Below, piece after piece: positions 1,689-35,688 of a DNA stretch of 64,000 nucleotides; the stretch's first letter is position 1; the number at the start of each line of letters is the position of its first letter. Where the stretch lies: contig NZ_FOMW01000001.1 of assembly GCF_900112755.1 (NCBI RefSeq), forward strand, positions 372,001-436,000. Reading direction: 5' to 3'. The translations under genes were made by a program, and so were the position numbers. The notes under the pieces were generated by a model. That model was given only the letters and a program-made list of their open reading frames with translations, ran no database searches and was not told the DNA's origin. The stretch comes from Sulfitobacter brevis. GTDB taxonomy: Bacteria; Pseudomonadota; Alphaproteobacteria; Rhodobacterales; Rhodobacteraceae.

Positions 1689-1706
1689 GCGTTTCTTGAC
1701 CTAAAC

Positions 1707-1731
1707 GGGGCGGTGCATTATGCGCCGCCCC
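1707..1731 (+). terminator. Intercistronic hairpin after the peptide-binding protein gene
   Basis: A GC-rich stem of about 10 pairs (GGGGCGGTGC against GCGCCGCCCC, with one G-T pair) and a 5-base loop is followed by a T-rich stretch (CTTCTTATTT). It lies between the receptor gene and the rest of the transporter operon. By inference it is a partial terminator or an mRNA-stabilising element that keeps receptor levels above permease levels, a common arrangement in ABC operons. Confidence 0.6.
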
Positions 1732-1756
1732 TTCTTATTTCTGCTGGAATTTCATC

Positions 1757-2866
1757 GTGACCGCATCCCTCTCTGACCGTCTGAGCGCCTATGCCGCTGT
1801 AGCTGCCGACCATGGCCTTGATGCCATCGCTCTGGTGCCCGGCCCGAACTTTACCCGCGCGCTTGGCCATTCCTTCATGAGCCACGAGCGCCCCTTTGTG
1901 CTGGTGATCCCTGCCCGTGGCCCTGCTGCCGCGCTGGTGCCCAATCTGGAACTGCAAAGCTGGGATCTGGTCGGGTTTGACGGCGCAATCTTCGACTGGC
2001 GCGATCAGGATGGCTATGACGCCGCCTTTGCGCAGTTGCTGGCGCATCTGAACATCACCTCTCTGGGTGTCGAAGGTCAGGTCATGCGGGTGTTTGTCCA
2101 CCATGCTTTGCTGCGCGCCCAAGCCGACCTGCGGATCGAGGACGCCGAGCGCGCCATCTCCGCCCTGCGGATGATCAAAACGCCGCAAGATATCGCCGCG
2201 ATGCTGGAGGCGATTGCCATCTCGGAACGCGCGCTTACCCATACGCTGGAACGTGTCCGCCTTGGCCAGACCGAAAAAGAGATCGAGCAGATGTTGATCC
2301 AGTCGCTCTTTGCCGAAGGGGCTGACGATCTCGCGTTTCCACCGATTGTGGCGGCAGGCGACGGCTCGGCCCGTCCCCATGCGCACGCGCGGCATGACTA
2401 CCGCGTTAAAGCAGGCGACGCCTTGCTGCTGGATTTCGGGGCGCGCAAGAATGGTTTTGCCGCTGACATCACCCGTACTGTCTTTCTTGATCACGTCACC
2501 GACGAAGGTCGGGCCGTTTATGAAACCGTGCTTGCCGCCAATATGCGCGGGCTCGAAATCACCCGCGCTGGTGTCACCGCCCATGAGATTGATGATGCCG
2601 TCACAGGCGTGCTCGAAGCTTCGCCCTTTGCTGTCCGCATCCGCACCAAAACCGGCCACGGGCTGGGCCGCGAGGTGCACGAAGCGCCCTATATCATGCG
2701 CGGCAATCACATGAGCCTGCCTGCGGGCACGGTTTATACAAACGAGCCCGGCCTTTATCAGATCGACAACTTCGGTGTGCGCATCGAAGACGATGTGCTG
2801 ATCACCGAAGAGGGCTATACGACGCTCACAAGTTTTCCCAAGGAACTGACGGTGCTGAAATGCTGA
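1757..2866 (+). CDS. M24 family metallopeptidase (Xaa-Pro aminopeptidase-like)
   Basis: This is a 369-residue pita-bread fold metallopeptidase, probably cytoplasmic, that removes N-terminal residues next to proline (aminopeptidase P or prolidase type). All five metal ligands can be seen in order: Asp in LLLDFGA, Asp in AADITRTVF, His in KTGHGLG, Glu in TNEPGLY and Glu in VRIEDDVL. A GTG start is used. The gene overlaps the next permease gene by 7 bases, so it is translated with the transporter. The context suggests that it hydrolyses imported peptides. The family is certain; the substrate is inferred. Creatinase-type activity is an alternative. Confidence 0.9.
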   Translation: MTASLSDRLSAYAAVAADHGLDAIALVPGPNFTRALGHSFMSHERPFVLVIPARGPAAALVPNLELQSWDLVGFDGAIFDWRDQDGYDAAFAQLLAHLNITSLGVEGQVMRVFVHHALLRAQADLRIEDAERAISALRMIKTPQDIAAMLEAIAISERALTHTLERVRLGQTEKEIEQMLIQSLFAEGADDLAFPPIVAAGDGSARPHAHARHDYRVKAGDALLLDFGARKNGFAADITRTVFLDHVTDEGRAVYETVLAANMRGLEITRAGVTAHEIDDAVTGVLEASPFAVRIRTKTGHGLGREVHEAPYIMRGNHMSLPAGTVYTNEPGLYQIDNFGVRIEDDVLITEEGYTTLTSFPKELTVLKC

Positions 2867-3867
2867 ATTATGTCCTAAGCCGCCTGCTGACCTTTATCCC
2901 GACCTTCCTCGGGGTGACGCTGATTTCCTTCGCGTTCATCCGCGTGTTGCCGGGCGATCCGATCATGGTGATGGCGGGCGAGCGCGGTATGAGCGACGAA
3001 CGCTATGCCGAATTGAGCGCGCAACTGGGCTATGACCGTCCGATGTATGCGCAGTTTTGGGAGTACCTGACTGGTGTTTTGCAGGGTGATCTGGGGAACT
3101 CCTTTGTCACCAAACGCCCGGTCTGGGACGAGTTCTTTTCGCTCTTCCCCGCCACGCTGGAACTGTCGCTTTGTGCGATGATCTTTGCCATGGCCTTGGG
3201 CCTGCCCGCCGGCGTGATTGCCGCCGTGAACCGTGGCAAATTCTTTGACCGAGCGCTGATGTCGACCGCCCTTGTGGGCTATTCGATGCCGATTTTCTGG
3301 TGGGCGCTGCTGCTGATCATCGTGTTTTCGGGCAATCTTGGCTGGACACCAGTCTCGGGCCGGATTGATCTGCTCTATTACTTCCCCGACCCCACAGGAT
3401 TTATGCTGATCGACAGCATCGCGTCGGGTCAAAAAGGTGCGCTGGTATCTGCGTTGCGGCATCTGCTGCTGCCGACCATCGTGCTCGGAACCATCCCGCT
3501 GGCAGTAATCGCGCGGCAAACCCGCTCAGCAATGCTGGAGGTTCTGGGCGAGGATTACATTCGCACCGCCCGCGCCAAGGGCATGTCTCCGGGCCGGATC
3601 AACGGCATTCACGCGCTGCGCAATGCGCTGATCCCCGTGATTACCGTGATCGGCCTCAGCGTTGGCACCCTGCTTGCAGGCGCGATCCTGACCGAGACGA
3701 TCTTTAGCTGGCCGGGCATCGGCAAGTGGATGGTCGATAGCATTTTCCGCCGCGACTATCCTGTTGTGCAAGGCGGGCTGCTGCTCATCGCGGTCATGGT
3801 CATGGTCGTGAACCTCACAGTCGACATGCTCTATGGCATCATCAACCCAAAGATCAGGAAACGCTGA
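2860..3867 (+). CDS. Peptide ABC transporter permease (DppB-like)
   Basis: This is an inner-membrane permease of 335 residues with the OppB/DppB N-terminal segment (LSRLLTFIPTFLGVTLISF) and about six membrane spans. The EAA coupling loop is visible near residues 230-250 (DYIRTARAKGMSPGRI). It forms the transmembrane pore together with the DppC-like protein encoded next. Its start overlaps the end of the M24 peptidase gene and its stop overlaps the next start, which indicates one transcript and coupled translation. Confidence 0.93.
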   Translation: MLNYVLSRLLTFIPTFLGVTLISFAFIRVLPGDPIMVMAGERGMSDERYAELSAQLGYDRPMYAQFWEYLTGVLQGDLGNSFVTKRPVWDEFFSLFPATLELSLCAMIFAMALGLPAGVIAAVNRGKFFDRALMSTALVGYSMPIFWWALLLIIVFSGNLGWTPVSGRIDLLYYFPDPTGFMLIDSIASGQKGALVSALRHLLLPTIVLGTIPLAVIARQTRSAMLEVLGEDYIRTARAKGMSPGRINGIHALRNALIPVITVIGLSVGTLLAGAILTETIFSWPGIGKWMVDSIFRRDYPVVQGGLLLIAVMVMVVNLTVDMLYGIINPKIRKR

Positions 3868-4772
3868 TGGACGACGCACTCTCAACCGAAGCCGAGATGG
3901 TTCACGCCCGCCCTGGTCGCTTGCGCGAGTTCTGGTTCTACTTCCGCGAAAACCGGGGCGCGGTGATCGGGCTGTGGATCTTTGCCGCCTTTGCGTTTCT
4001 GGCCCTGTTTGGCCCGTGGATCGCCCCGCATGATGCCACCGCACAGTTCCGCGCCGATACGCTGGTGCCGCCTTTCTGGCAGGAGGGTGGTTCGTGGAAG
4101 TACATTCTCGGCACCGATCCTCTGGGCCGCGATATGCTGTCACGTCTGATCGTCGGCGCACGCTATTCGTTCTTTGTCGGCGTTGTGGTTGTCAGCATCG
4201 CGGCGTCGGGCGGCATTCTGATCGGCCTGATCGCGGGTTTTGCGCCACAATGGCTCGACAGTATCATCATGCGGATCATGGATATCATCCTCGCCTTCCC
4301 GTCGCTGTTGCTGGCGCTGGTGCTGGTCGCGATCCTCGGGCCCAGCCTGACCAATGCGATGATCGCCATCGCCATCGTCTTGCAACCGCATTACGTCCGC
4401 CTGACCCGCGCCAGCGTGCTGTCGGAAAAGCAGAAGGACTATGTCACCTCGGCGCGTGTCGTGGGCGCGGGCTATCTGCGGCTGATGTTTATCACTGTGC
4501 TGCCAAACTGCCTTGCGCCGATCATTGTGCAGGGGGCGCTGTCCTTTTCCACCGCAATCCTTGATGCGGCGGCGCTGGGGTTTCTGGGGATGGGTGCACA
4601 GCCGCCCACACCTGAATGGGGCACCATGCTGGCCGAAGCGCGCGAATTCATTCTGCGGGCCTGGTGGGTCGTCACCTTCCCCGGCATTGCCATTCTGGTC
4701 ACCGTGCTGGCGATCAACCTGATGGGCGACGGGCTGCGCGACGCGCTTGACCCCAAGCTGAAAAGGAGCTGA
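3867..4772 (+). CDS. Peptide ABC transporter permease (DppC-like)
   Basis: This is the second pore subunit, 301 residues. It has the N-terminal extension typical of OppC/DppC (FWFYFRENRGAVIGLW), the motif ILGTDPLGRDMLSRLI near residue 80, and an EAA loop (DYVTSARVVGAGYLRLM). Its ATG overlaps the TGA of the preceding permease. It should pair with the DppB-like protein and the two ATPases downstream. Confidence 0.93.
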   Translation: MDDALSTEAEMVHARPGRLREFWFYFRENRGAVIGLWIFAAFAFLALFGPWIAPHDATAQFRADTLVPPFWQEGGSWKYILGTDPLGRDMLSRLIVGARYSFFVGVVVVSIAASGGILIGLIAGFAPQWLDSIIMRIMDIILAFPSLLLALVLVAILGPSLTNAMIAIAIVLQPHYVRLTRASVLSEKQKDYVTSARVVGAGYLRLMFITVLPNCLAPIIVQGALSFSTAILDAAALGFLGMGAQPPTPEWGTMLAEAREFILRAWWVVTFPGIAILVTVLAINLMGDGLRDALDPKLKRS

Positions 4773-4775
4773 ACG

Positions 4776-5753
4776 ATGCCTCTTTTGCGTATCCGAAACC
4801 TGAGCGTTGATTTCGCCACCGCCTCCGGTGCGTTTCGCGCTGTGGACGCGGTTGATCAAGACATGGAGACTGGCGAGATCCTTGCCATCGTCGGTGAAAG
4901 CGGCTCGGGCAAATCCGTGTCAATGCTGGCGCTGATGGGGTTGCTGCCGTGGACTGCGACCGTCACCGCCGACGAGCTTAGCTTTGACGGCCATGACCTA
5001 TTAAACATCGCCCCGCGCGCACGGCGCAAGATTGTGGGCAATGATCTGGCGATGATCTTTCAAGAGCCGATGTCCTCGCTCAACCCCTGTTTCACCGTCG
5101 GTTGGCAGATCAAGGAAGCCCTGCGTTCTCACCTCGGCCTTAACCGCAAGGAACGCCATGCGCGGGCCGTGGAGCTTTTCGAACAGGTCGGCATCCCCGA
5201 CCCCGAAAAACGCCTCTCGGCTTTTCCGCACCAGTTGTCGGGCGGAATGAACCAGCGCGTAATGATCGCTATGGCCATCGCCTGTAAGCCCAAGCTGCTG
5301 ATCGCGGATGAGCCTACAACCGCGCTCGACGTGACCATTCAGGCGCAGATCCTTGATCTGCTCGCTGACCTGCGCCGCGATACCGGCATGGGGCTGGTGC
5401 TGATCACCCACGACATGGGCGTGGTTGCCGAAACCGCCGAGCGGGTGAGCGTGCAATACGCGGGCCAAAAGGTTGAAGAGCAGCCGGTTGGCGCGTTGTT
5501 CGCCACCCCGCACCACCCCTATACGGGCGCGCTGCTCGACGCGCTGCCCGAACGCGCAACGGAAAAGAAACTGCCGACAATTCCCGGCGTAGTGCCCGGC
5601 CAGTTCGACCGCCCTGCGGGGTGTCTATTCTCGCCGCGCTGCAAGTTCGCCAATGACAAATGCCGCAGCACCCCGCCGCCGCCCTTGGGTGCCGATATGG
5701 GCTATGCGCGCTGCTTTTATCCACTTAACGCCAACGAGAGGATCGCATCATGA
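4776..5753 (+). CDS. Peptide ABC transporter ATP-binding protein (DppD-like)
   Basis: This is a cytoplasmic ATPase of 325 residues. Walker A reads GESGSGKS, the signature is LSGGMNQR and Walker B plus D-loop is DEPTTALDV. The C-terminus carries the oligopeptide transporter extension with Cys residues ([14 protein letters not shown]), a region that often ligates an iron-sulfur cluster in DppD proteins. It begins three bases after the dppC-like gene and its end overlaps the dppF-like gene by 4 bases. Confidence 0.93.
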
Positions 5754-6721
5754 GTGACGCTCCGGTGATGCAGGCCACGGGTCTGCAACGGCACTACAAC
5801 GTCGGCGGCGGGCTGTTTCAGAAATCCCGTGTGCTCAAGGCTGTCGCGGGACTGGATTTCGAGGTCCATGCCGGCAAGACGCTGGCCGTAGTTGGCGAAA
5901 GCGGCTGTGGTAAATCCACCCTCGCCCGCATGGTCGCGATGATCGAAACCCCGACCGAAGGTAGCCTGACGCTGGATGGCAAACCTGTTCGCGCCGAGGA
6001 TTGGGCCGACCTGCGCCAGTCGGTGCAGATTGTGTTCCAAGACCCCTACGGATCGCTGAACCCGCGCCAGCGTATCGGCACGATCCTGATGGAACCACTG
6101 ATGATCAACACCAAGCTGAGCCGCGCCGACCGCGAGGCCAAGGCACGCGAAATGCTGAAACTTGTCGGGTTGCGCCCCGAGCATTTCGACCGCTATCCGC
6201 ATATGTTCTCCGGCGGGCAACGCCAGCGGATCGCGATTGCGCGGGCTTTGATGCTGGACCCCAAAGTGCTGGTGCTGGACGAGCCTGTCTCGGCGCTCGA
6301 TCTGTCGATCCAGAGTGCCATTCTGAACCTGCTGCTGGACCTTCAGGAACGGCTGCAGCTGGCCTATCTCTTCATCAGCCATGACCTCAGCGTGGTGCGC
6401 CATGTGGCTGACGATGTGATCGTGATGTACCTTGGCCGTGCGGTGGAAAAAGGCCCGAAAGCGGAAGTCTTTGACGCGCCACGCCATCCTTACACCAAGG
6501 CCCTGCTCTCGGCGACGCCGCGTGCCGAACCGGGGGCAGAGAAAGAGCGCATCAAGCTCAAGGGCGAATTGCCCTCGCCGCTGTCGATCCCCGATGGCTG
6601 CCCCTTTGCGCCCCGCTGCTGGAAGGTTCAGCCCAAGTGCCGTGCAGAATTGCCGCGCTTGCGCGGCCAGCCACACGGCGCGGCGTGTTTCTTTCCCGAG
6701 AATGGCACTTATCCCGAGTAG
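5750..6721 (+). CDS. Peptide ABC transporter ATP-binding protein (DppF-like)
   Basis: This is the second ATPase of the importer, 323 residues. Walker A is GESGCGKST, the signature is FSGGQRQR and Walker B is DEPVSALDL. The C-terminal oligopeptide-transporter extension is present ([14 protein letters not shown]). It overlaps the DppD-like gene by ATGA and is the last gene of the operon. A strong hairpin follows before the convergent proA. Confidence 0.93.
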
Positions 6722-25771: not shown

Positions 25772-26514
25772 CGACAGGCTCTGGCATATCGATTCGTAAT
25801 CTCAGCAAATCCTTTGGCGACACCGCCGTCCTGACTGACATCTCGCTCGAGATCGCGCCCGGCGAACGGGTGGTGGTGATCGGACCCTCCGGCACCGGCA
25901 AATCGACCCTGCTGCGCTGCCTGAACTTCCTCGACCGACCGGATGCGGGCACTTTGCAGCTCGGCGATTTGAGCGTTGATGCCAAGACCGCCTCGCGTGC
26001 CGAGATACTGGCACTGCGGCGCCGCACCTCGTTTGTATTTCAAAACTATGCCCTCTTCGCCAACAAAACCGCGCGGCAAAATATCACTCAAGCACTGATC
26101 GCGGTTAAGGGTCTGTCAAAAGCCGACGCCAACCGCCGCGCCGATGATATCCTGCGTGAAACCGGCCTCACAGCCCGTGCCGAAGCCTATCCCGCCGCGC
26201 TGTCGGGTGGTCAGCAGCAGCGTGTGGGGATTGGCCGCGCGATGGCACTGGACGCTGATCTGATGCTCTTTGACGAGCCCACCTCCGCGCTCGACCCTGA
26301 ATGGGTTGGCGAGGTGCTCGACCTGATGCGCAGGGTCGCCGAAAAGCGTCAGACCATGCTGATCGTGACCCATGAGATGCAGTTCGCCCGCGAGATCGCG
26401 GACCGGATTGTTTTCATGTCCGAAGGCCGGATCATCGAGCAAGGCCCGCCTGCGCAGCTTTTGGAAAACCCGCAGGATCCGCGAACAAAGGCGTTTCTAC
26501 GGCGCGTGAGCTAA
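25768..26514 (+). CDS. Amino-acid ABC transporter ATP-binding protein
   Basis: This ATPase has 248 residues. Walker A is GPSGTGKST, the signature LSGGQQQR and Walker [10 protein letters not shown], the classical polar-amino-acid (GlnQ/HisP) set. It is the last gene of the importer operon. Its final 83 bases overlap, on the opposite strand, the end of the RTX/Hint gene. Confidence 0.92.
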   Translation: MTTGSGISIRNLSKSFGDTAVLTDISLEIAPGERVVVIGPSGTGKSTLLRCLNFLDRPDAGTLQLGDLSVDAKTASRAEILALRRRTSFVFQNYALFANKTARQNITQALIAVKGLSKADANRRADDILRETGLTARAEAYPAALSGGQQQRVGIGRAMALDADLMLFDEPTSALDPEWVGEVLDLMRRVAEKRQTMLIVTHEMQFAREIADRIVFMSEGRIIEQGPPAQLLENPQDPRTKAFLRRVS

Positions 26515-29038
26515 AAACGCGCTTATGCAGAGATGAAGGCACGGATAGTTCGCGGCTGTCATATCGCGCCCTCGCATAAACCACATCCGACCTTGGATGC
26601 CTTGTGGTCGCGATCCGGCCTTTCGCTTTGAGATACTTCGATATTTGACGTCGGGCAGCGCCAACGGTCAGGCATTCCCGCGCTGGCGGGCCATTCAAGG
26701 CTGCTTCTGACGTCCGCGCAGGTCCGAAAATTTTGGAGAGAACCTGACGTTCAGTCTCTAGCAGGCCTTGCAGAACCATCGGACCGATGAGCAGCGACTC
26801 AGAGAAAGAGCCATTGGCCGTCACGATTTCATGGCGGTCACAGGCGAAATGAAACCATGTGATCGCTGCCTTGTTTTTCATGTGGCGAATGCCCGGCAAT
26901 GCCGTCAACGACTTGGCAGGCGCCAGTTTCTCGCTGGCAAACACATTGTGCAACTGGCCATTGCCGCCCACCAGTATGCGGTGCTGTGGTGATACAATCA
27001 GGTCACGCGCGGGCAGGCCGCCGCCCAGCGCACCGGCTTTGATCAACACAGGCTTTGCATCGTCGCCAAGGCTGTCCAGCGGCTGATCCGCGCTTCGAAT
27101 CCACCGAATAGCCTGTGCACCATGGTCTCGTGTCATTACCAGATCGCCGGGGGCCAATGTTTCCACAGCGCGTGGGCCGTCGGGTGTTTCGATCATTGTG
27201 CCTGGTGCGTAACAGGGGATACCCGCCCGCGTCAGTTGCGCCGGAGCGTTCACCTGCGACGGAGAAACTCCCTGCAGTAGCAATGTTTCCCCGTTTGGAA
27301 AGGTGAGCAGTGCGTTACCAAAGCCGTCGTGACTGACCACGACATCCCACACGTTGACCGGATTGCCGTTGGCATCGGTAAGGCCGCTAAGATCAAGCTG
27401 ATCGTTGAAGAACCCGTCGTTGTCTGCGTCGCCGGTATCGAAATCGGTAATCGTATCAGCGCCGAACCCGTCGCCGAGAAGGAAAAGATCATTGCCCGCG
27501 CCGCCGCTCAGCAGGTCATTGCCAGCCCCGCCAATCAGCGTATCGTTGCCAGCCCCGCCCAGCAGAGTGTCGTTACCGCCACCGCCGGAGAGCGTGTCGT
27601 TGCCTGCGCCGCCAGACAGTATGTTTGCATTGCCATCACCGGTGAGGCTGTCGTTCAGCGTGGAGCCAGTGAGGTTCTCGATGCTGATGAGGGTGTCGCC
27701 CTGCGCGTCCCCGCCAATGCCCGTACCATTGCTAAGGTTAACCGTGACACCTGAGGTGGAGGCGGAATAGTCGGCGGTGTCGTTTCCGTTGCCGCCGTTC
27801 AGCACGTCGGCGCCTGCTCCGCCGATAAGCGTATCGTCGCCGTCGCCGCCCAGAAGCGAATCCGACCCTGTACCACCGTTTAAAAGGTCGTTGCCCGCGC
27901 CCCCGGACAAGGTGTCGTTGCCGCCTCCCCCGATCAATACGTTGGCATTGCCGTCGCCGGTCAAGTTGTCATTATAGAACGAACCGGTAATGTTTTCGAC
28001 GCCGGTAAGGGTATCGCCCTGCGCGTCCCCCCCGCTGCCCGTACCAGTGGCGAGGTTGACCGTGACCCCTGCCCCCGAAGTTGTGTAGTCAGCGGTGTCG
28101 ATGCCAGTGCCGCCGTCCAGCAGGTCGGCCCCGGGGCCGCCGATCAATGTGTCGTCTCCGGCGCCACCGCGCAGAGTATCGTTGCCCGCGTTGCCAATCA
28201 GCACGTTCGCGCCTGCGTCACCAGTCAGGCTGTCGTTGTAGTTCGACCCGGCGAGGTTTTCGAAGTTTGACAGGACATCGCCCTGGGCATCCCCGCCCGA
28301 GCCGATGCCGGTGGTCAAATTAACGGTGACGGCCGACGTAGACGTGCTGTAATCTGCCGTATCAATGCCCGGCCCGCCATCGAGCGTGTCTTGACCCGGA
28401 CCGCCGATGATCGTGTCATTCCCCAAGCCACCATTGATCGAGTCGCGCCCGCCATATCCGAAAATCAGATCGTCATTGCCATCGGTGCCGTCGATTTGGT
28501 CGCCCTGCGCGTCAGTATAGCCCGGGCCCATGACGTCGGCGGAATTTGTGCCATCCACGCCGGATAACCACGGCGTGCCATAGGTCGCATAATCCGCGGT
28601 TCCGATATTGTTGCCGCCAACTTTTTGATAGCTTGCGCCGGATACCAGCGGGGCATCCGATACGAACCCCCAAACATCGCTGGTGACCCCGTTTTGAGAC
28701 AGCACCGTGATTGTGATGACCGGTCCTGTTGGCGATCCGTTCGCATCAAGCAGCTGAACCTGAATCAGCGATTCCGCTTCGATCCCGTTGCCATTATTGA
28801 CCAATCCGGCACCGTTGGTGACGATGTGGGTGCTGGCCCTGTCGTCTTCGAGGGTGTTTGATGAACCACCTGTGTCGTTGATCGTAACAGCACGGCTTGG
28901 ATAGCCGGAGCTGAAAACATACCGCGTGCCATTCGGCGAGTCCGAGTTGTTGATGACGGTGGCACCCGCCGTTTGAGTGGTCGAGAACGTGACGCGCAAT
29001 GCCTCGCTATCAACGACGTAAAGCGTGCGTTCTACCAT
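26432..29038 (-). CDS. RTX repeat and Hint domain secreted protein
   Basis: The 868-residue product has an N-terminal region of about 180 residues without clear family, a long run of Ca-binding RTX nonapeptides (GGxGNDxLxGG type, residues about 185-555) and a Hint domain (CYAPGTMIETPDGPRAVETL from about residue 610 to 750). No signal peptide is visible, which fits type I secretion. The repeats come in three modules of about 85-105 residues, each with an interrupting DTADYSxSxxxVTVNL segment. The last about 95 residues beyond the Hint end look unlike family members, and the last 28 codons lie antisense to an ABC ATPase gene, so the original stop may have been lost. No transporter genes are adjacent. 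Confidence 0.85.
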   Translation of the reverse strand: MVERTLYVVDSEALRVTFSTTQTAGATVINNSDSPNGTRYVFSSGYPSRAVTINDTGGSSNTLEDDRASTHIVTNGAGLVNNGNGIEAESLIQVQLLDANGSPTGPVITITVLSQNGVTSDVWGFVSDAPLVSGASYQKVGGNNIGTADYATYGTPWLSGVDGTNSADVMGPGYTDAQGDQIDGTDGNDDLIFGYGGRDSINGGLGNDTIIGGPGQDTLDGGPGIDTADYSTSTSAVTVNLTTGIGSGGDAQGDVLSNFENLAGSNYNDSLTGDAGANVLIGNAGNDTLRGGAGDDTLIGGPGADLLDGGTGIDTADYTTSGAGVTVNLATGTGSGGDAQGDTLTGVENITGSFYNDNLTGDGNANVLIGGGGNDTLSGGAGNDLLNGGTGSDSLLGGDGDDTLIGGAGADVLNGGNGNDTADYSASTSGVTVNLSNGTGIGGDAQGDTLISIENLTGSTLNDSLTGDGNANILSGGAGNDTLSGGGGNDTLLGGAGNDTLIGGAGNDLLSGGAGNDLFLLGDGFGADTITDFDTGDADNDGFFNDQLDLSGLTDANGNPVNVWDVVVSHDGFGNALLTFPNGETLLLQGVSPSQVNAPAQLTRAGIPCYAPGTMIETPDGPRAVETLAPGDLVMTRDHGAQAIRWIRSADQPLDSLGDDAKPVLIKAGALGGGLPARDLIVSPQHRILVGGNGQLHNVFASEKLAPAKSLTALPGIRHMKNKAAITWFHFACDRHEIVTANGSFSESLLIGPMVLQGLLETERQVLSKIFGPARTSEAALNGPPARECLTVGAARRQISKYLKAKGRIATTRHPRSDVVYARARYDSRELSVPSSLHKRVFSSRAVETPLFADPAGFPKAAQAGLAR
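27480..28400 (-). repeat. Three tandem RTX/VTVNL modules within the Hint protein gene
   Basis: Three similar segments of roughly 0.26-0.33 kb encode DTADY...VTVNL...GGDAQGD...NDxLTGDxxANxLxGG blocks followed by nonapeptides. They are internal protein repeats, diverged at DNA level, not a mobile element. Confidence 0.7.
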
Positions 29039-29471: not shown

Positions 29472-29499
29472 GTGGCGGACCGAGGAACCGCCGAACCCC
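29472..29499. repeat. Distal attachment site repeat (partial tRNA-Arg 3' end)
   Basis: GTGGCGGACCGAGGA (29472-29486) is identical to 35611-35625, the acceptor-stem/CCA end of tRNA-Arg. After 5 mismatches the match resumes in register with CGAACCCC (T-arm). It lies 129-156 bases before the integrase start. The degenerate T-arm means this is a remnant, not a second tRNA gene. Confidence 0.7.
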
Positions 29500-29563
29500 T
29501 GTTCCCATTAACTCCTTTACATTCCCTAACATTCTTTGTTGCCAGCGGCTTAAAGGATAACTC

Positions 29564-29593
29564 TTGCTCTGACGTTCCGAGAGATCCTATGAT
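29564..29593 (+). promoter_or_regulatory. Candidate integrase promoter
   Basis: TTGCTC (29564-29569) and a good TATGAT (29588-29593) are 18 bases apart, with AGGTAGGA about 15 bases later and the integrase ATG at 29628. It lies inside the element, between its left repeat and the gene. Confidence 0.4.
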
Positions 29594-29627
29594 ATAGCCA
29601 GACATTCAAGGTAGGAATAATGGTAGT

Positions 29628-30806
29628 ATGGCAAAAGCAGGCCTTACTGTAGCGAAGGTAGCCAAGCTGACCGAGCCGGGGCGCTATGCAGACGGCAATT
29701 GCTTGTACTTGGTCCTACCTAAAACAGGCGGCAAATATTATATCTGCCGCGTCACGATTCATGGCAAGCAATGCGATATAGGCTTAGGCGGTGCGGCTTA
29801 CACCAGTTTGGCCGAAGCGCGGGAGCAGGCTACGCAGATCCGTAAGGTAGCGCGTGCTGGTGGCGACCCCCGGCAAGAGCGCAAGAAAGAACGGCTGACC
29901 TTTGCGCAGGCAGCAGAACGCGTTCACGCCAGTCTTGAGCCAACGTGGCGCAACGCCAAACATGCGGCAGGCTGGCTTTCTACGGTAAAGACATACGCTG
30001 ACCCGCAGTTCGGTGATCGCCCTATAGAAACGGTCAACACTGCGGATTGCCTAAGAGCGCTTGCTCCTATTTGGACGACTAAGCACGAAACAGCCAAACG
30101 GCTCCGGCAACGGCTGGCGACAGTGTTCGACTGGGCGAAGGGCGCGGGGCACTATCCGCACGAGAACCCGATCAACGGACTAAGTAAAGCTCTGCCCAAT
30201 TACAAACCGCGCGTTCAGCATCACCCTGCCCTACCATGGCTTGAGGTGCCAGCGCTCATGGCAGACTTGGCTAAGCGTGAAGGCATATCAGCCCGCACGC
30301 TTGAATTCTTGATCCTAACGGCCACGCGATCAGGGGAAGCTCGAGGTGCTCGCTACTGCGAGATAGATGGCCGCGCTTGGACAGTGCCTGCAGAACGTAT
30401 GAAACGGGGAATCGAACATCGGGTGCCGTTGTCAGCACAAGCACTTGCCGTCTTGGACCGCGTGAGCGGCTTAGGTGATGATCTGGTATTCCCAAGCCCG
30501 AATGGTGGAAAACAACAACTCGAACAAAGTGATGCGTCAATCCGCGCCCTGCTTAACCGAATGAAGCGCACAGGCTTTACCGTGCACGGCTTCCGCAGCG
30601 CATTTCGAGATTGGGCAAGCGAAAGCGCTCATGCGGATCGGGAAGTGGCCGAGGCGGCGCTTAGCCATGCCACTGGAACTGACACCGAAAGGGCTTATGC
30701 GCGATCAGATTTGCTTGAGCGGCGCAGAGCATTGATGGAGCAATGGGGAAGGTTCTGTTGTGGTGAGATGTCTGACGTAGTGAGGGTTTCGCGTTGGGCA
30801 CGATGA
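29628..30806 (+). CDS. Tyrosine recombinase, P4-type integrase
   Basis: This site-specific recombinase has 392 residues. It has the N-terminal domain of P4-like integrases (KLTEPGRYADGNCLYLVL) and a C-terminal catalytic domain: Arg in TATRSGEAR near residue 234, HGFR near 319-322 (HxxR box), His in LSHATG near 347 and the nucleophile Tyr in RAYARSD near 356. All key residues are present, so it should be active. It probably drives integration at the tRNA-Arg 3' end. It sits at the end of the element far from the tRNA and points towards it. The next gene overlaps by ATGA. Confidence 0.93.
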   Translation: MAKAGLTVAKVAKLTEPGRYADGNCLYLVLPKTGGKYYICRVTIHGKQCDIGLGGAAYTSLAEAREQATQIRKVARAGGDPRQERKKERLTFAQAAERVHASLEPTWRNAKHAAGWLSTVKTYADPQFGDRPIETVNTADCLRALAPIWTTKHETAKRLRQRLATVFDWAKGAGHYPHENPINGLSKALPNYKPRVQHHPALPWLEVPALMADLAKREGISARTLEFLILTATRSGEARGARYCEIDGRAWTVPAERMKRGIEHRVPLSAQALAVLDRVSGLGDDLVFPSPNGGKQQLEQSDASIRALLNRMKRTGFTVHGFRSAFRDWASESAHADREVAEAALSHATGTDTERAYARSDLLERRRALMEQWGRFCCGEMSDVVRVSRWAR

Positions 30807-31489
30807 CGGAAAAGCGTGAATGCTGGGGATGTCCCGATGGGATGAACGTTGATGAATACCCAAATTCTGAGGAGTGGTGCGACAGAAGGTGGCGCTGGGA
30901 ATTTCTTAGGCGCTCACAGAAGGTGAGGGGCGCTTTTTCTCTTGCACTGGTAAAACAATACCAAAGCGAGGAACGTCGAATACCAATCGACTACATGACT
31001 GCTGTCGAAAACCTAGAGATTGTCCTTCCACTCTCTCCACAAATGGCTGCACACATTGGTTACGCAGCCCTACCTAATCCAGCGAATCCAGCCTCCTTCA
31101 ATTTTCTTGATCAAAATGCCCGTAGCTTCCATGAAGCGAGGCGAATAGAGCTATGGGACCTTGAGTTAGTTGCGGCTGGAAAAGCTAGTGCATTAGACGT
31201 TTTTAGTGTGGTTCAGGTGCCTGTTATTTTCGACCCCAACGCACCTATAGCTCCTCAACTAGAAGGGCTTGCCGAGTATCTGTTGAGCTTTCGGCACCAT
31301 TCAGTTCGCGACGACCTTCAGAAGCAACGCGGCGACCTCTGGTTTTCCTATCTGCGGATATTGGACGCGCGTGAAGCAGGATATACCTATGCCCAGTGTG
31401 CCGAGCACCTCTGTGGCAGCACGGCGGCGACCGATCAGACAGCAAGGGATCGAGTGAGGGCGGCAAAACGCCTCCAAGACCGTATGTGA
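30803..31489 (+). CDS. Uncharacterised protein of the integrative element
   Basis: I do not recognise a characterised family with certainty. The 228-residue product starts with a Cys-containing segment (CWGCPDG) and then YPNSEEWCDRRWRWEFLRRS, which resembles the transcriptional-regulator-like domain (WxWEFLRR) found in alphaproteobacterial mobile elements. The C-terminal part (GYTYAQCAEHLCGS...RVRAAKRLQDRM) looks like a helix-turn-helix. It overlaps the integrase stop by ATGA, so the two are co-translated. A role in controlling integration or excision is possible but is only inference. Confidence 0.7.
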   Translation: MTEKRECWGCPDGMNVDEYPNSEEWCDRRWRWEFLRRSQKVRGAFSLALVKQYQSEERRIPIDYMTAVENLEIVLPLSPQMAAHIGYAALPNPANPASFNFLDQNARSFHEARRIELWDLELVAAGKASALDVFSVVQVPVIFDPNAPIAPQLEGLAEYLLSFRHHSVRDDLQKQRGDLWFSYLRILDAREAGYTYAQCAEHLCGSTAATDQTARDRVRAAKRLQDRM

Positions 31490-31573
31490 TCTAAGCGCCC
31501 ATTTCCTTTCACATTATCCTGCGCACCGCACCTTGGGGCAAGATTGGGACATTCCAAGAAAGGAGTGATTCAA

Positions 31574-31798
31574 ATGCCAAACAACCAGAATACTGAGGGA
31601 AAAAGTTGGCCCCCACATATGCGGTCTTCGCAGGCATCAGCATACTCGGGTGTTAGCGTGTCTCACCTTGCCAAGCTGCGTATGGAGATCAATCGTGGCA
31701 AAGGCCCCGCCTATTCGAAGGTGGCAGGCTGTATAGTCTACCGTAAGGCCGACCTCGACAAGTGGCTGGCTGACAATCTCGTTGGCGCAGCCGCCTAA
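31574..31798 (+). CDS. AlpA/excisionase-like DNA-binding protein
   Basis: This is a 74-residue protein of the HTH_17/MerR-like excisionase type: MRSSQASAYSGVSVSHLAKL is the recognition helix region and VYRKADLDKWLADN the closing helix, the typical pattern. ATG 31574 has an AAGGAG site and is preferred to the upstream ATG 31544. Such proteins activate the integrase or bend DNA for excision in P4-like satellites. It does not overlap its neighbours and probably has its own promoter. Confidence 0.8.
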   Translation: MPNNQNTEGKSWPPHMRSSQASAYSGVSVSHLAKLRMEINRGKGPAYSKVAGCIVYRKADLDKWLADNLVGAAA

Positions 31799-31910
31799 TG
31801 CAAACCCCCGCGCAATCCAGTGGATCGAGCAGGGGTGCTAACTATTCAGAAGTCTTGGCGGACAACTGGAAAGTTAGCGTGCTCGGTCCCAAAATTCAAG
31901 GACTGAAAAT

Positions 31911-32249
31911 ATGAGCTTCCAAACAAATATCCTGAAACCAGTCGAGACACCGCGTTGGATTATGTCCGTCCGCGACCTTACTGACGACCGAACACCTGCG
32001 AAATACGAGGTCACTAACGCAGATGGCAGCACATCGGTTGTCACTCTCAAAGACCGCAAGCGCCAAGTCGTCGATGCTATGCTGATCGGCCCGGTATTCT
32101 GCGCATCGACAGTGCGTTTGGGTGACGCGGTGTTTCGCCTCAAAGAAGATAACAACCTCCACGCCGCGACCAAGACGACAGCGGAAGGGCGCAAATTCTA
32201 CACGCTGAGCGGCCAAGGTGTGCGCCGGATCGACGGAGGTGTGGTTTGA
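31911..32249 (+). CDS. Small winged-helix protein (HTH_39-like)
   Basis: The 112-residue product carries DRKRQVVDAMLIGPVFCASTV and the following LGDAVFRLKEDNNL at residues about 50-84, the pattern of the small winged-helix domain common in phage and integrative elements. AAGGA precedes the ATG. A 7-bp inverted repeat (GCTAACT at 31837, AGTTAGC at 31872) lies upstream. It begins the cluster of tightly packed genes that runs to 34.6 kb. Its targets are unknown. Confidence 0.7.
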   Translation: MSFQTNILKPVETPRWIMSVRDLTDDRTPAKYEVTNADGSTSVVTLKDRKRQVVDAMLIGPVFCASTVRLGDAVFRLKEDNNLHAATKTTAEGRKFYTLSGQGVRRIDGGVV

Positions 32250-32251
32250 TT

Positions 32252-32353
32252 ATGGCTCTCAAAATCCAGATTGCCCGCCTGCAACGCCTCTATGGCCTGA
32301 CCGCAACCCAAGCCCGCCTTGTCGCTGGCCTGCACTATGGGGAGGGCGTGTAG
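32252..32353 (+). CDS. 33-residue ORF translationally coupled to the replication gene
   Basis: ATG 32252 has a GGAGG site 13-17 bases upstream and encodes MALKIQIARLQRLYGLTA and on to a stop TAG whose last base is the first base of the next GTG start (TAGTG). The sequence (LTATQARLVAGLHYGEG) resembles a single helix-turn-helix unit. The precise junctions with both neighbours support a real coupled gene or leader peptide. Function unknown. Confidence 0.55.
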   Translation: MALKIQIARLQRLYGLTATQARLVAGLHYGEGV

Positions 32354-33183
32354 TGGCCAAGACCTTCGCCCAAATTGAAACTACGCTGCCGCACTCTCGA
32401 AAGCTGCGGCAGCTGAACCACGGAGAAAGGTGGGCGTATCTTTGCGCCCACCTCACCCCTCTCGGCGGGTATATTGGTTTGTTTCGGTATCCCAAGGCCA
32501 TCTGGGCCGATGATGCTGACCTCGCGGTCGCGGAGCTTGATACCGCAATCCAGAAGATGACCGAAACTGGTCTTCTGTCTTTTGATGAAGATGAAGACTT
32601 TGTGCGGATTCACAGTTGGTTCCTCAAAAAGAACGCGCCGGAAAACGCCAGCCGCATGGCCTCACTTGCGGCGGATTATTCGGACCTCGACGCACCAGAC
32701 GAGTTGATTATGGAATCTGCTGCCGAATTCACAGTCGGCGCAATCAAGCGAGCACAACGGTGGAAGCCAGACAGCGTTGAGTGGGGGAAGCTGCGGGACG
32801 TGTTCAAACCGTTTCTGGCAGCGATGCGTCACAACTACGAAGACGACTTTCACGAGGCCCTTGTTGCCCAACTCATCGGGCAAAACCGCGCAGTTAAGGT
32901 CGAACTTTGCGCCCTTATGCCCTCCCTGCAGCACCACTTGGAGGCACCCTGCCCCCACCCTGCCGACACCGTGGGGCCACACTACACTGAGACGAGACGA
33001 CACTTAAACGAGACTAAAACGAGAAAAGACGAAAACTACACGGATCAAATTTCTAGCGAAAACGTCCAACCCTTTACGGCACTGAATTCGGCAGAGGTCG
33101 GAAGTGCTGAGAAAGGGCGAAAGGCCCAAGGACCACGCTCAGAAACCATCGAAGCAGCAAGACGCATAGGAGCAATTCCATGA
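32353..33183 (+). CDS. Phage-type replication protein (winged-helix replisome organiser-like)
   Basis: The 276-residue product starts with GTG 32353 behind GGAGGG; the longer frame from 32218 has no ribosome site. Residues about 15-95 (LRQLNHGERWAYLCAHLTPLG, then YPKAIWADD, then MTETGLLSF and FVRIHSWFLKK) follow the layout of the N-terminal winged-helix domain of phage replication initiators. The C-terminus is charged and probably disordered. It is likely to recruit the host helicase to an origin in the element. The family call rests on pattern, not on a search. Confidence 0.65.
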   Translation: MAKTFAQIETTLPHSRKLRQLNHGERWAYLCAHLTPLGGYIGLFRYPKAIWADDADLAVAELDTAIQKMTETGLLSFDEDEDFVRIHSWFLKKNAPENASRMASLAADYSDLDAPDELIMESAAEFTVGAIKRAQRWKPDSVEWGKLRDVFKPFLAAMRHNYEDDFHEALVAQLIGQNRAVKVELCALMPSLQHHLEAPCPHPADTVGPHYTETRRHLNETKTRKDENYTDQISSENVQPFTALNSAEVGSAEKGRKAQGPRSETIEAARRIGAIP

Positions 33184-33617
33184 GCGACCGTAACAACGGC
33201 CAGAAAACGGATGAGCGCAATCCAGACGGAACGTTTGCGCCCGGCAACCCCGGCAGGCCGCGAGGCGCTCGCCACAAGGTCACACAGGCCATTGAGGCTA
33301 TGCTGGGGGGGCAGCAGGAGGCTTTGACGCAGGCGGCGATAGACAAGGCGCTAGAAGGCGATGTCACCGCTCTGCGTCTGTGCCTCGACCGCATCGCCCC
33401 TGCTCGGAAGGATGCGCCGGTATCGTTTGACTTGCCCGCCATCGAAACGGCAGAGGACGCCGCCAACGCCGCGCGGGCCATCCTCAGAGCAATTGCTGCC
33501 GGTGATGTAACACCACTCGAAGCAGCGACCGTCATGGCTGTTGTCGAACAATTCCGCCGCACCTTGGAAACCACAGAAATTGAACGCCGGATCACGGCAT
33601 TGGAGGCAAGCAAATGA
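33180..33617 (+). CDS. DUF5681 domain protein (terminase small subunit-like)
   Basis: The 145-residue product begins with NPDGTFAPGNPGRPRGARHK (residues about 13-32), the hallmark of DUF5681, a domain common in phage regions near packaging genes. The rest is helical. It overlaps the upstream and downstream genes by ATGA. No large terminase subunit is present in the element, so, if it recognises DNA for packaging, it would have to work with a helper phage enzyme. That role is inferred. Confidence 0.75.
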   Translation: MSDRNNGQKTDERNPDGTFAPGNPGRPRGARHKVTQAIEAMLGGQQEALTQAAIDKALEGDVTALRLCLDRIAPARKDAPVSFDLPAIETAEDAANAARAILRAIAAGDVTPLEAATVMAVVEQFRRTLETTEIERRITALEASK

Positions 33618-33889
33618 GCAGCACGAAAAATAGGCTTCGCGAGCTGGAACGCGGCAATCAGCGATTAGAGGTACACCTTACTTCGATGGCTTTTGACACG
33701 GGCGATGCGGCCAACCAGTCCACACGCACAGCAGCCTTTCACTGCGACGGGTCCGAGTACCAGATCACCCGCGATCAGGGCGAAGATGCAGGCGTCTTCA
33801 CACGTCGCGCGGAAGCCGAGGGCATGGCGCTGGCGCAAGCAGATCACCCGAAAGCGATAATCTTAGCGCCCGGTTCGGAGGATTTGTGA
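33614..33889 (+). CDS. Small uncharacterised protein of the integrative element
   Basis: The 91-residue product starts with a charged helical segment (RLRELERGNQRLEVHL) and has a beta-rich middle (TAAFHCDGSEYQITRD). I do not recognise a family. The ATGA overlaps on both sides support translation as part of the tight cluster. Confidence 0.6.
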   Translation: MSSTKNRLRELERGNQRLEVHLTSMAFDTGDAANQSTRTAAFHCDGSEYQITRDQGEDAGVFTRRAEAEGMALAQADHPKAIILAPGSEDL

Positions 33890-34179
33890 GCATGACACAG
33901 GAAGGCAGAGTGCAGCGGCTTGAGGCCATCGGTGGAGCGACAAAGGAGACGATCCTTGCCGTTGTGCCAGAGCATTGGGACGATGACGAGGTTCAGGCAG
34001 GGATTACCCATCTTAGGAAAACGTTCGTCCTGCCCTGCACATGGAGCATGAGCATGACCCGCGATCAGAATCTCACGGAAGCACGGCTGCTTTTCGCAGG
34101 CGATTTGCCTGCCCTGTTCAAGCGCGTTGCAAGACGCAGCGGCAGGATCGGCATCCCATCGCAGGAGGGCCAAGCATGA
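33886..34179 (+). CDS. Small uncharacterised protein of the integrative element
   Basis: This 97-residue frame starts at GTG 33886 (overlapping the preceding stop) or ATG 33892; the GGAGG site fits either. The N-terminal GRVQRLEAIGGATKETILAVVP resembles the start of small proteins next to DUF5681 genes in phage regions. No function can be assigned. Confidence 0.55.
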   Translation: MSMTQEGRVQRLEAIGGATKETILAVVPEHWDDDEVQAGITHLRKTFVLPCTWSMSMTRDQNLTEARLLFAGDLPALFKRVARRSGRIGIPSQEGQA

Positions 34180-34382
34180 ACCACTCATCACGACTTCAGA
34201 ATCTCGAAATCAAGAAGCCGAAGGCAACGACCGTCGATGCCAAGCTGAAACTTGAGCAACATCTTCAGAAAATCTCTGACCGACTGCCACCCCTTACAAC
34301 CGCAGAGCAACAGGCATCGCAGGACTGGCTTGTAAATGAGTGGCCGGATCATCTGGAAAGGATGCGCAACAATGCAACTTAG
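34176..34382 (+). CDS. Small uncharacterised protein of the integrative element
   Basis: This 68-residue, helix-rich, charged product starts at ATG 34176, which overlaps the previous stop (ATGA) and follows AGGAGG. The same frame open upstream to 34041 is not needed. No family is recognised. Confidence 0.55.
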   Translation: MNHSSRLQNLEIKKPKATTVDAKLKLEQHLQKISDRLPPLTTAEQQASQDWLVNEWPDHLERMRNNAT

Positions 34383-34578
34383 GCACGGCAAAAGAAGTCA
34401 CAAACCCGCGCGGTGCCGTTGGTGTGCCGAGTGCGGCTGCTTATTGAAGCAGAGTGAGGCTGCAAGAGGTGCAACCTTGTGCGGGCAACCACACTTAATC
34501 AGACGCGGCGAGAAACGCCGGAATGTTCAAGCACCAACAGGTTCAATCAACTCGCATTGCCAGCGTCCCAAGCGATGA
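34372..34578 (+). CDS. Small Cys-rich, zinc-ribbon-like protein
   Basis: The 68-residue basic product carries CRWCAECGCLL (residues about 15-25) and a later LCGQPH, so three to five Cys and a His could hold a zinc ion. ATG 34372 has AAGGA 9 bases upstream and overlaps the previous gene by 11 bases. It might bind nucleic acid. Longer reading from 34336 is less likely. Confidence 0.5.
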   Translation: MQLRHGKRSHKPARCRWCAECGCLLKQSEAARGATLCGQPHLIRRGEKRRNVQAPTGSINSHCQRPKR

Positions 34579-34660
34579 ATTTTGTAGCGCAGATTGAAAG
34601 CGAAAAGCCTTGCAACCGGAAAGGGAACCGTTGTTGACTGTAACGGCGGAGGGATTGTTG

Positions 34661-34957
34661 ATGAAACGCCTAATATCAATAGCGCTATTTTTGCTCGCAG
34701 GATGCGACGCGCCCCAACCGCAGCCGCTCAGGCCGAGCCCCGCGATGCAGCAGATCCTTGCCGCGTGCCAAAATGGCGACCTGAAAGCCTGCGAGTTCGC
34801 AGAAAGCACGCGCCAAGCCGAATTGCAGCGCCGCGCGTCGATCCCGCCGCCTGTGTTCCGCCCGTCGTACAATAACCCCGCAGATTTTCAGACGAAGCCC
34901 GCACAGCAAACGATATGCCGCAACAGTTTCGGGCAGATTGTTTGCACGACCTACTGA
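34661..34957 (+). CDS. Small lipoprotein of the integrative element
   Basis: The 98-residue product starts with a lipoprotein signal (MKRLISIALFLLAGC, lipobox L12-A13-G14-C15) and a Pro/Gln-rich stretch (DAPQPQPLRPSP). Two more Cys pairs (AACQNGDLKAC and ICRNSFGQIVC) may form disulfides. ATG 34661 has GGAGGG upstream, unlike the longer frame from 34610. It is the last supported gene of the element. A role in cell-surface modification, for instance phage exclusion, is possible, but nothing in the sequence proves it. Confidence 0.65.
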   Translation: MKRLISIALFLLAGCDAPQPQPLRPSPAMQQILAACQNGDLKACEFAESTRQAELQRRASIPPPVFRPSYNNPADFQTKPAQQTICRNSFGQIVCTTY

Positions 34958-35610
34958 CGGAAAATGGCGGCGTCAGAGCGGCGCATCGGGGTATGGCCGC
35001 ACACACCCCGATAAATTCCGGAGCGGTAAGGCCACGGTATGGCAACTCTAGCGGTATAGGCGACCACACCTCTAGCCGCGCGGGGCCACCCCAAGGCTTC
35101 CCAGAGGTCAGAGAGCGATGCGCCCCCGAATTTATGGCCACCGTAAAAGTATACGGCGCTGCGCAGGAGCGGGGCAAAGTCCGCGTTAATGGTGAACGCA
35201 GCTTTGAAACAAGAGTGCTGTATTTGCGCCCGCCGCTCGTGGGCCAAGCTGTTGGGTTTTCCGCACCTTCCAACGAGGGTAGCGCAGTGACCAAGAATGA
35301 TTGATAACGGAGGGACGTAACCGCTGGTTACAGCTAGTAGGTTCCCGCAAAGGCCCAAGGGCAACATCTTGGTAAACTGATTTTTACCATCTTCTCATAT
35401 CTTGTCCGTATGGAAGAAAAGAGCTTCGCCAATTCAGTCAGGATCGAGCACCGTTCGAAGGGCCGGGCACAATCTGCGCGTTACCATGATCTGCGTCTTT
35501 GCCATGTTCCGGGATACGTCGAGAATAATTTTCGAAAGCGGTAGGATTATTGGTAGTAAATCAAGAAAACTCTAATATTTCCTTGCTAATCAACGACATA
35601 CGAGGGGGAA
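34958..35610. other. Gene-poor right end of the integrative element
   Basis: About 650 bases lie between the lipoprotein gene and the tRNA. An inverted repeat with 8-bp arms (ATCGGGGT at 34985, ACCCCGAT at 35005) may terminate the element's transcript, and a small hairpin (GGTAAA/TTTACC) lies near 35371-35388. An open frame 34915-35304 has no ribosome site or recognisable family. This is where an origin or packaging site would be sought. Confidence 0.4.
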
Positions 35611-35625
35611 GTGGCGGACCGAGGA
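35611..35625. repeat. Proximal attachment site repeat within tRNA-Arg 3' end
   Basis: GTGGCGGACCGAGGA, identical to 29472-29486, covers the CCA end and acceptor stem of tRNA-Arg. Integration at this position leaves the tRNA intact. Confidence 0.7.
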
Positions 35626-35688
35626 GGATTCGAACCCCCGACCCCCTGATTCGTAGTCAGGTACTCTATCCAGCTGAGCTATCGGTCC
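35612..35688 (-). tRNA. tRNA-Arg (anticodon ACG)
   Basis: Read on the minus strand, 77 bases fold as a full cloverleaf: acceptor stem GGACCGA/TCGGTCC, D-arm with AGCTCAGCTGGATAGAG, anticodon stem CCTGA/TCAGG with loop CTACGAA (anticodon ACG), a 5-base variable region and T-arm with GTTCGAATC. The discriminator is G and CCA is encoded. Its 3' end is the integration site of the element at 29472-35625. Confidence 0.97.

Follow-up and report, generated by a model that had tools for sequence, protein, structure and literature searches.

A probable phage satellite of an unnamed alphaproteobacterial lineage at a tRNA-Arg gene of Sulfitobacter brevis

What kind of mobile element is the short string of genes lodged at a tRNA-Arg gene of Sulfitobacter brevis? 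We analysed a stretch of 64,000 nucleotides (the window), positions 372001-436000 of contig NZ_FOMW01000001.1 in a genome of 4.24 Mb, which holds a 6,139-bp unit at window 29472-35625 bounded by tRNA-Arg(acg) and a copy of the tRNA 3' end. A first-pass annotation had proposed a minimal phage satellite. Our analysis points, with a probability of about 0.8, to a phage satellite that is integrated in the genome and belongs to an alphaproteobacterial lineage with no name as yet, a reading that draws together a shared gene order, repeats of tRNA ends, the lack of virion-building genes and the presence of a packaging-type gene. The lineage as a whole is best read as one of podophage satellites, similar in build to the phage-inducible chromosomal minimalist islands (PICMIs) but outside them.

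The boundaries of the element are sharp. ARAGORN places the tRNA gene at 35612-35688 on the minus strand (Rfam tRNA, 64.2 bits), and an exact 15-nt repeat, GTGGCGGACCGAGGA, matches its 3' end on the integrase side (29472-29486) and pairs with the tRNA-side copy at 35611-35625. Over a longer stretch, 27 of 35 nt on the integrase side are identical to the tRNA end. When the integrase-side gap was shuffled 1,000 times with its dinucleotides preserved, no repeat as long arose, the longest reaching 13 nt, in agreement with the boundaries first drawn. The G+C content of the element is 0.556 against 0.588 in the remaining window, a value equally low in 2 of 116 sliding windows.

All genes of the element lie on the plus strand, in the order int, orf2, AlpA-type helix-turn-helix (HTH) gene, orf4, rep, DUF5681, ORF7, orf8, orf9, a scar and orf11. 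The tyrosine integrase (29628-30806, 392 amino acids) exceeds the Pfam cut-offs of PF00589, PF22022 and PF13356 and matches phrog_1 at E 2.8e-50; pattern searches locate RSGEARG at residue 234, HGFR at 320 and HATGTDTERAY at 347, which we take to be tyrosine integrase motifs. An HTH_17 regulator or excisionase of AlpA type (31574-31798, 74 amino acids; PF12728 above cut-off, phrog_66 7.6e-5) is followed by orf4 (31911-32249, 112 amino acids), a conserved gene between alpA and rep to which the Pfam scan assigned no family, and by a putative winged-HTH replication initiator with a GTG start (32353-33183, 276 amino acids). The DUF5681 protein (33180-33617, 145 amino acids) passes the PF18932 cut-off. 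The integrase, AlpA-like and DUF5681 assignments of the first-pass annotation thus hold at Pfam thresholds. Its phage-type replication gene is weakly matched in the window itself (phrog_25711, E 1.3e-6; a DnaD-like loader, E 0.14), with no primase domain recognised in the Pfam or PHROGs scans, no relative in IMG/VR and an 85% identical copy in one other genome among 60 searched; the same slot is filled by replication proteins in relatives. Scans against Pfam and PHROGs, together with structural queries, turned up no structural protein, large terminase or conjugation family in the element, as had been claimed; the companion claim of no lysis genes is blurred by faint spanin- and endolysin-like matches, described below. 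An integrase and a replication gene, the latter weakly matched, in an element short of a full set of virion genes correspond to the general features of a satellite.

To place these genes in a wider frame, relatives of DUF5681 were taken from the named genome collection (the best 80 of 152 confirmed stretches); 18 duplicates were dropped, and a simple gene caller written for the purpose was used to map 104 loci. At E 1e-6, 34 of 394 family genomes carry DUF5681. The order int-AlpA-orf4-rep-DUF5681, which contains the int-alpA-rep-DUF5681 series that the first-pass annotation had suggested seeking, recurs across alphaproteobacterial genera, with hosts in Sulfitobacter, Ruegeria, Roseovarius, Marivita, Sphingomonas, Erythrobacter and Bosea. 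An integrase lies upstream of DUF5681 in 57 of the 103 loci in which the latter was located; among these 57, an AlpA-type gene is present in 48 (43 by the AlpA profile and five only through the HTH_17-related cluster c28, whose members in L095, L205 and L220 were tested and proved to be HTH_17), orf4 in 30, a recognised replication gene in 36 and an ejection-type gene in 28. The orf4 cluster counts 30 genes in the 104 loci. Integrase genes end in NTGA able to overlap the next start in 36 of 58 cases (16 ATGA, 20 GTGA or TTGA), some of the overlapping frames being short. The replication slot holds a winged-HTH initiator, or proteins of AAA_25/RepA, Toprim plus DUF3987, Prim-Pol or D5/DUF5906 type; judged by gene content, the replication module is swapped between members of the lineage.

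Integration at tRNA genes is similarly general. Thirteen mapped loci, the window element and 12 others, have an integrase upstream and a tRNA no more than 9 kb downstream. In all 13 the tRNA 3' end is repeated on the integrase side, over 14-50 nt and unmatched by shuffles (100 per locus, 1,000 for the window); the target genes encode tRNAs for Arg, Leu, Thr, Phe, Met, Asn, Pro and Ala. We also inspected the tRNA-Arg site in 20 of 58 genomes of the genus, picked for long contigs. The tRNA and a histidine-kinase gene are present in all 20, and profiles of int, AlpA, orf4 and DUF5681 found no match at the site. The core of the repeat occurs once in 18 of these element-free sites, twice in one and not at all in one, so that, at the sites inspected, the flanking repeat was not found conserved in strains without the element. 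Among the matches listed, most Sulfitobacter matches to the tRNA and kinase side start within about 20 nt of the repeat. S. dubius DSM 16472 holds a related element, L017, at the same tRNA, and another genome a different one, L077. The comparison with empty sites proposed at the outset is available for the kinase side in 20 genomes, and lacking as a clean empty site with the left flank of the window.

Sequence similarity and gene context together suggest what DUF5681 does. Its profile matches EVC05_082 of Rhizobium phage RHph_N2, a protein overlapping TerL (23.6 bits; E 1.8e-6 within that phage set), and the annotated TerS of Pam1 (21.3 bits), both in the N-terminal part only; the E-values of the comparison that gave these bit scores were computed over eight sequences. 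In the IMG/VR contig L223 the gene sits between TerL and portal, and in L231 about 0.6 kb before TerL. From this position beside TerL and the N-terminal TerS match, we infer that DUF5681 is probably a packaging protein of small-terminase type, which would give a family rarely named in the open-access literature a concrete, testable role. No known terminase family was found among the window proteins in Pfam, PHROGs or NCBIfam. AlphaFold models DUF5681 as helical throughout, with low confidence at the N-terminus (mean pLDDT 77, pTM 0.47). Codons 121-145 (33540-33614, plus strand) show reduced synonymous change in nine Sulfitobacter sequences (0.221 against 0.439 for the whole gene; 0 of 1,000 permutations), which is not seen at the 3' end of the gene in 86 other sequences; the stretch is therefore a possible cis packaging site that would be at most lineage-specific. 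As a separate observation, the first 113 bp of phiGT1, the start of its putative small terminase, match L104:14555-14667 of Ruegeria sp. ANG-S4 at 80.5%, about 4.5 kb past DUF5681, possibly a shared packaging site. Four distant contigs from a single-sequence IMG/VR scan with DUF5681 (L013-L016, G+C 0.38-0.42), with few or no genes called, were set aside.

The distribution of virion genes appears to set these elements apart from phages. A query set of 105 proteins, drawn from eight phages (RcapNL, RcapMu and six podophages or podophage-like phages) and from the faecal record L007, was compared with 111 loci by tblastn at 1e-4; the loci include L207-L210, from Sulfitobacter and without a DUF5681 call, and L206, identical to L090, and L007 was excluded as a target since it served as a query. 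Queries for TerL (8), portal (8), capsid (8), tail (10), fibre (6), spike (3) and scaffold matched none of the 111 loci, so that relatives running on into a full capsid and tail set, which would have made the element a decayed prophage, were not found. TerL, portal and capsid queries find their counterparts within the phage set more often (3/8, 4/8 and 4/8) than ejection queries do (2/13), which argues that the method can detect the missing genes. To be set against this absence is a TerL match at the element-free tRNA-Arg site L197.

Ejection or internal virion-type queries, on the other hand, match 36 of the 111 loci, a class partly assigned by position and homology: phiGT1_18 and phiGT1_19, CRP-114 gp40 and Pam1_12 and Pam1_14 are named in their records as internal-virion, injection, needle or injectosome proteins; the RHph and CRP-114 gp39 proteins are recorded as hypothetical or tail; KLEP18-1 gp20 and gp21 ('structural protein') and Pam1_16, which bears an unrelated name, were also counted. 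The remaining structural matches concern the protein at the DUF5681 position in ten loci, the small-terminase fragment in L104 and one structural protein in L048. In all 33 of the 36 ejection-positive loci for which a DUF5681 position was mapped, the nearest ejection match lies on the DUF5681 strand, and in 29 it lies within 5 kb. When two ejection queries were run against the 394 family genomes, six and three genomes matched: five hold DUF5681 elements, one an int-orf4 element without a DUF5681 call, and three prophages. The int-orf4 element (L244, G183:C10), in which no DUF5681 was found, carries its c42/c43 ejection pair on the opposite strand.

These ejection proteins have several distinct phage relatives. 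Those of BIG5 are phiGT1_19, whose record names a putative injection protein (E 3.4e-94 by profile), and the hypothetical protein EVC14_016 of RHph_I3_18; the c42/c43 pair matches the neighbouring KLEP18-1 gp20 and gp21 (c43 at 36.5% identity over 99%); sphingomonad elements encode proteins of about 1,600 amino acids with a match to T7-type internal virion protein D; and c87 matches needle or ejection proteins of Pam1 and others. The prophage L239 carries c87, c42 and BIG5 in that order. In a tree built from 28 BIG5-type proteins, those of satellites and those of phages are intermingled: the label changes five times, at least four of the changes being forced by well-supported branches, which suggests that ejection genes were probably captured several times; 177 of 500 label shuffles are equally low, and three long branches are unsure. 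A siphophage counterpart appears in the viral record L220, with int, HTH_17, RepA, DUF5681 and a tape measure protein; L007 combines DUF5681 with tail and tape-measure genes, and L221 with an HK97 gp10-type gene.

The window copy itself probably lost such a module. In the genome G029, the loci L203 and L204 run from DUF5681 through ORF7 and a 95- or 89-residue protein, then in L203 alone through orf9, and on through another ORF7-type gene and a 43-residue protein to an ejection pair of 445 and 850 or 855 residues. Directly 3' of the ejection genes of L204 stands a gene that shares 62% identity with orf11. The window shares this frame: ORF7 (33614-33889, plus strand), a small protein conserved 3' of DUF5681 in a cluster of 25 genes; orf8 (33892-34179, plus, 95 amino acids), with like proteins at the matching place in L203 and L204; orf9 (34176-34382, plus, 68 amino acids; cluster c39, four genes), present in L203; and orf11 (34661-34957, plus), a small lipoprotein-like protein missed by the simple gene caller, for which tblastx finds 70 of 113 residues identical to the L204 gene. 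Between orf9 and orf11, at 34394-34441 on the plus strand, lies an apparent remnant of a podophage-type ejection gene, a match of 16-26 residues to the 445-residue protein (score 64; 0 of 300 shuffles, maxima 50 and 52). This scar, together with the synteny of orf11 with L204, indicates that the window copy is probably a deletion derivative. The satellite identification made in the first-pass annotation is well supported by recurrent order, tRNA repeats, absent virion genes and a packaging-type gene, and its 'minimal' build would be partly secondary.

The loss raises the possibility that the window copy is a dead satellite remnant, in keeping with the scar and with the absence of any called gene from 34382 to the tRNA. 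We consider this doubtful, though a real chance, as int, alpA, rep and DUF5681 all keep uninterrupted reading frames and the S. dubius element L017 is comparably small (6,331 bp), likewise without an ejection match. Related sequences lie elsewhere in the same genome. L009 (C23, 8387-10971) is a decayed copy with int, DUF5681 and small-terminase pieces broken; L010 (C34, 11435-11610) is a piece of about 120 bp resembling window 34441-34545; and L008 (C44:1-19167, at 343-5845 near the contig end), a second related element, holds int, an orf4-type gene, RepA, a DUF5681 gene with an altered C-terminus and a GP3-type small terminase (PF16677, 8.1e-24), the last of which speaks for the satellite reading.

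If the element is a satellite, its life cycle might run as follows. Podophage infection would switch on AlpA and Int; the element would excise through Int and then replicate through rep; DUF5681 would steer the TerL and capsid of the helper to satellite DNA; and in relatives the ejection-type proteins would replace those of the helper in satellite-filled particles, giving a chimeric delivery machinery. The window copy would rely on helper ejection proteins or no longer be transmitted. These steps are modelled on PICMI115 and PLE11 as described in the available parts of their reports (PMC10803314 and PMC12987554, respectively). We regard as evenly balanced the fuller proposal that the lineage builds chimeric virions from helper podophage heads and tails and its own ejection proteins, taken repeatedly from phiGT1-like, KLEP18-like, T7-like (internal virion protein D) and Pam1/P22-like groups, with a tape measure counterpart in siphophage-dependent members. 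If true, replacement of ejection or tape measure proteins would be a general satellite strategy.

The same proteins might instead act against phages, excluding them or poisoning competing particles, in line with satellites that sabotage tail assembly through Tai (PMC11364771) and Rta (PMC12987554), as the accessible text of these papers describes. This we think unlikely: the proteins are long, pairs keep the phage order (c42-c43 as KLEP18-1 gp20-gp21), and identities to virion proteins of about 25 to 54% suggest that they still assemble.

Much less probable again is that the element is a decayed prophage, a podophage stripped of its head and tail genes. Its ejection-type proteins and DUF5681 are phage-related, and the C23 and C44 elements of the same genome are partly broken; yet the same reduced order recurs in many genera with TerL, portal, capsid and tail absent from all 111 loci, the three ejection-bearing prophages recovered by the same search do show tail-type genes (3/3) and, in one of three, portal and capsid, and the forced label changes in the tree fit repeated capture better than a single decay. 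An equally improbable origin is a conjugation-borne mobilisable element with phage-like passengers, suggested by Mob_Pre-type genes (cluster c57) beside an ejection or tail gene in some sphingomonad members and L007 (L163:12468-13622, PF01076 1.3e-10; L126; L007:6523-7614) and opposed by DUF5681 near TerL, by ejection modules that point to virions and by the lack of a relaxase family in Pfam and PHROGs scans of the window element, relatives not having been searched for relaxases as a set.

Several observations nevertheless weigh against a podophage satellite with a small terminase. What the sequence shows is gene content and boundaries. Of the 78 loci whose sequence reaches 8 kb or more upstream of DUF5681, 28 lack a called integrase, and the left flank of the window was not found beside the tRNA in the 20 genomes, L017 or L077, leaving no clean empty site. 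The likeness of DUF5681 to annotated TerS is confined to the N-terminal 35-50 residues or so; the family is scarce in known phages (one of 50,697 records at 1e-5, four at E 1); and its comparison with solved structures gave no convincing match, as was also the case for Pam1 TerS. The test for virion genes covers eight phages and L007, two of the phages being non-podophages, and open reading frames were domain-scanned in part. In four of 33 loci the ejection match is more than 5 kb from DUF5681, and some tail genes of siphophage type occur in L007, L220 and L221. Furthermore, no podophage-type prophage was found in carriers: a phiGT1 portal query matches two of the 394 family genomes, and the five podophage-type prophages recovered (two by this query, three by ejection queries) all lie outside the 34 carriers. 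The portal query missed the three ejection-bearing prophages and thus undercounts this type. The TerL of phiGT1 was not found in the genome of the element itself.

The other genes in and around the element are more loosely characterized. orf2 (30803-31489, plus strand, 228 amino acids) overlaps int through ATGA at 30803-30806 and has a weakly RovC-type DNA-binding C-terminus (PF10074, E 0.0017, under the Pfam cut-off). There are two lysis-like hints: a stretch of orf11 only as long as the signal peptide resembles an Rz-like spanin family (E 0.011), and window 34800-35012 has a weak endolysin-like match to phiGT1 (E 2.4e-4; 30.4 bits against a maximum of 26.2 in 300 shuffles), absent when the query ran alone at E 0.1 and not relied on. 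Defence families were absent from the seven window proteins searched. Adjoining the element at 26432-29038, a repeat-rich protein of 868 amino acids with glycine/aspartate repeats has no match at 1e-10 near the tRNA-Arg site in the 20 relatives, L017 or L077. Elsewhere, a second subfamily (L076-L079, L081 and L082) shows the gene string c24-DUF5681-c37-c36-c23 with tRNA repeats of 45-50 nt in the five loci measured, and one c24 and one c37 member tested fell in no Pfam or PHROGs family. SNase-type and SRAP-type genes and clusters c15 (weakly WYL_2-like) and c16 (without a name) recur near elements (L094:11709-12104; L092:15233-15871; L141:15076-17121).

How does the element compare with known satellites? 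Phage-inducible chromosomal islands (PICIs), including the Staphylococcus aureus pathogenicity islands (SaPIs), combine an integrase and a replication gene with a regulator of AlpA type and a packaging gene resembling terS, a set that the window element resembles. It differs in having DUF5681 in place of a known terminase family and in lacking a recognised ppi or capsid-redirecting gene; a PICI-type terS or packaging redirection gene was not encountered, DUF5681 being TerS-like by context and N-terminal match only. The satellite P4 uses sid, psu and delta for capsid size and polarity suppression; no such families appeared in Pfam and PHROGs scans of the window, to which no direct search with P4 proteins was added. 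The nearest phage relatives of the ejection-type proteins, phiGT1 (Sulfitobacter), KLEP18-1 (Paracoccus), RHph_I3_18 and RHph_N2 (Rhizobium), are complete phages, head, tail and terminase genes included, unlike the lineage.

Similarity in build is closest to PICMI115, one of the PICMIs of Vibrionaceae, which in the available text of its report (PMC10803314) spans 6,110 bp; between 17-bp direct repeats it carries int and a gene that overlaps int through ATGA, followed by alpA, a single gene, a primase and a 3' gene. The window element shares the size of about 6.1 kb, the lack of recognised capsid-remodelling genes and the int/orf2 ATGA overlap, a common, non-universal PICMI feature. Of the PICMI trio of int, alpA and primase, the window has int and an AlpA-type gene, with a rep lacking a recognised primase domain. 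That text gives the fis site as a PICMI hallmark, with at most one element per genome, describes no capsid-remodelling genes in PICMIs and reports no terS homologue in PICMI115. Our element sits instead at tRNA-Arg and its lineage at many tRNA genes, with DUF5681, often with ejection genes and sometimes with several elements per genome. Capsid-forming PICIs (cf-PICIs) make their own capsids, and some encode putative tmp genes according to the accessible text of PMC12987554; here, capsid, portal and TerL queries at E 1e-4 matched none of the 111 loci. By the defining features tested in its sequence, the element is not a PICMI, PICI or cf-PICI. Charybdis elements, which in the available text of PMC12324425 have differing genes and archaeal hosts, were rejected as a match.

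In the literature, capsid and packaging theft by satellites is already established, and the available text of PMC12987554 (March 2026) reports chimeric tails built by the PICI-like elements (PLEs) of Vibrio cholerae, satellites of ICP1 that supply TMP, TAC and BhuB to chimeric particles. The open-access literature yielded no report linking phage satellites with internal virion proteins, none joining satellites, injection proteins, podovirus and helper phage, and none on satellite integrases that brings Sulfitobacter and roseophages together; the string 'podovir' is absent from the main text of the PLE paper. Like PLEs, this lineage encodes putative parts for virion delivery; unlike them, its proteins are of podophage ejection type, and L220 and L007 alone have a tape measure protein. 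What is new is the suggestion that satellites carry ejection modules, a parallel to the tape-measure piracy of PLEs (PMC12987554, 2026, in its accessible part). Satellites that parasitise podophages in Rhodobacterales, Sphingomonadales and Bosea may follow the same strategy, and named genomes of these groups allow testing.

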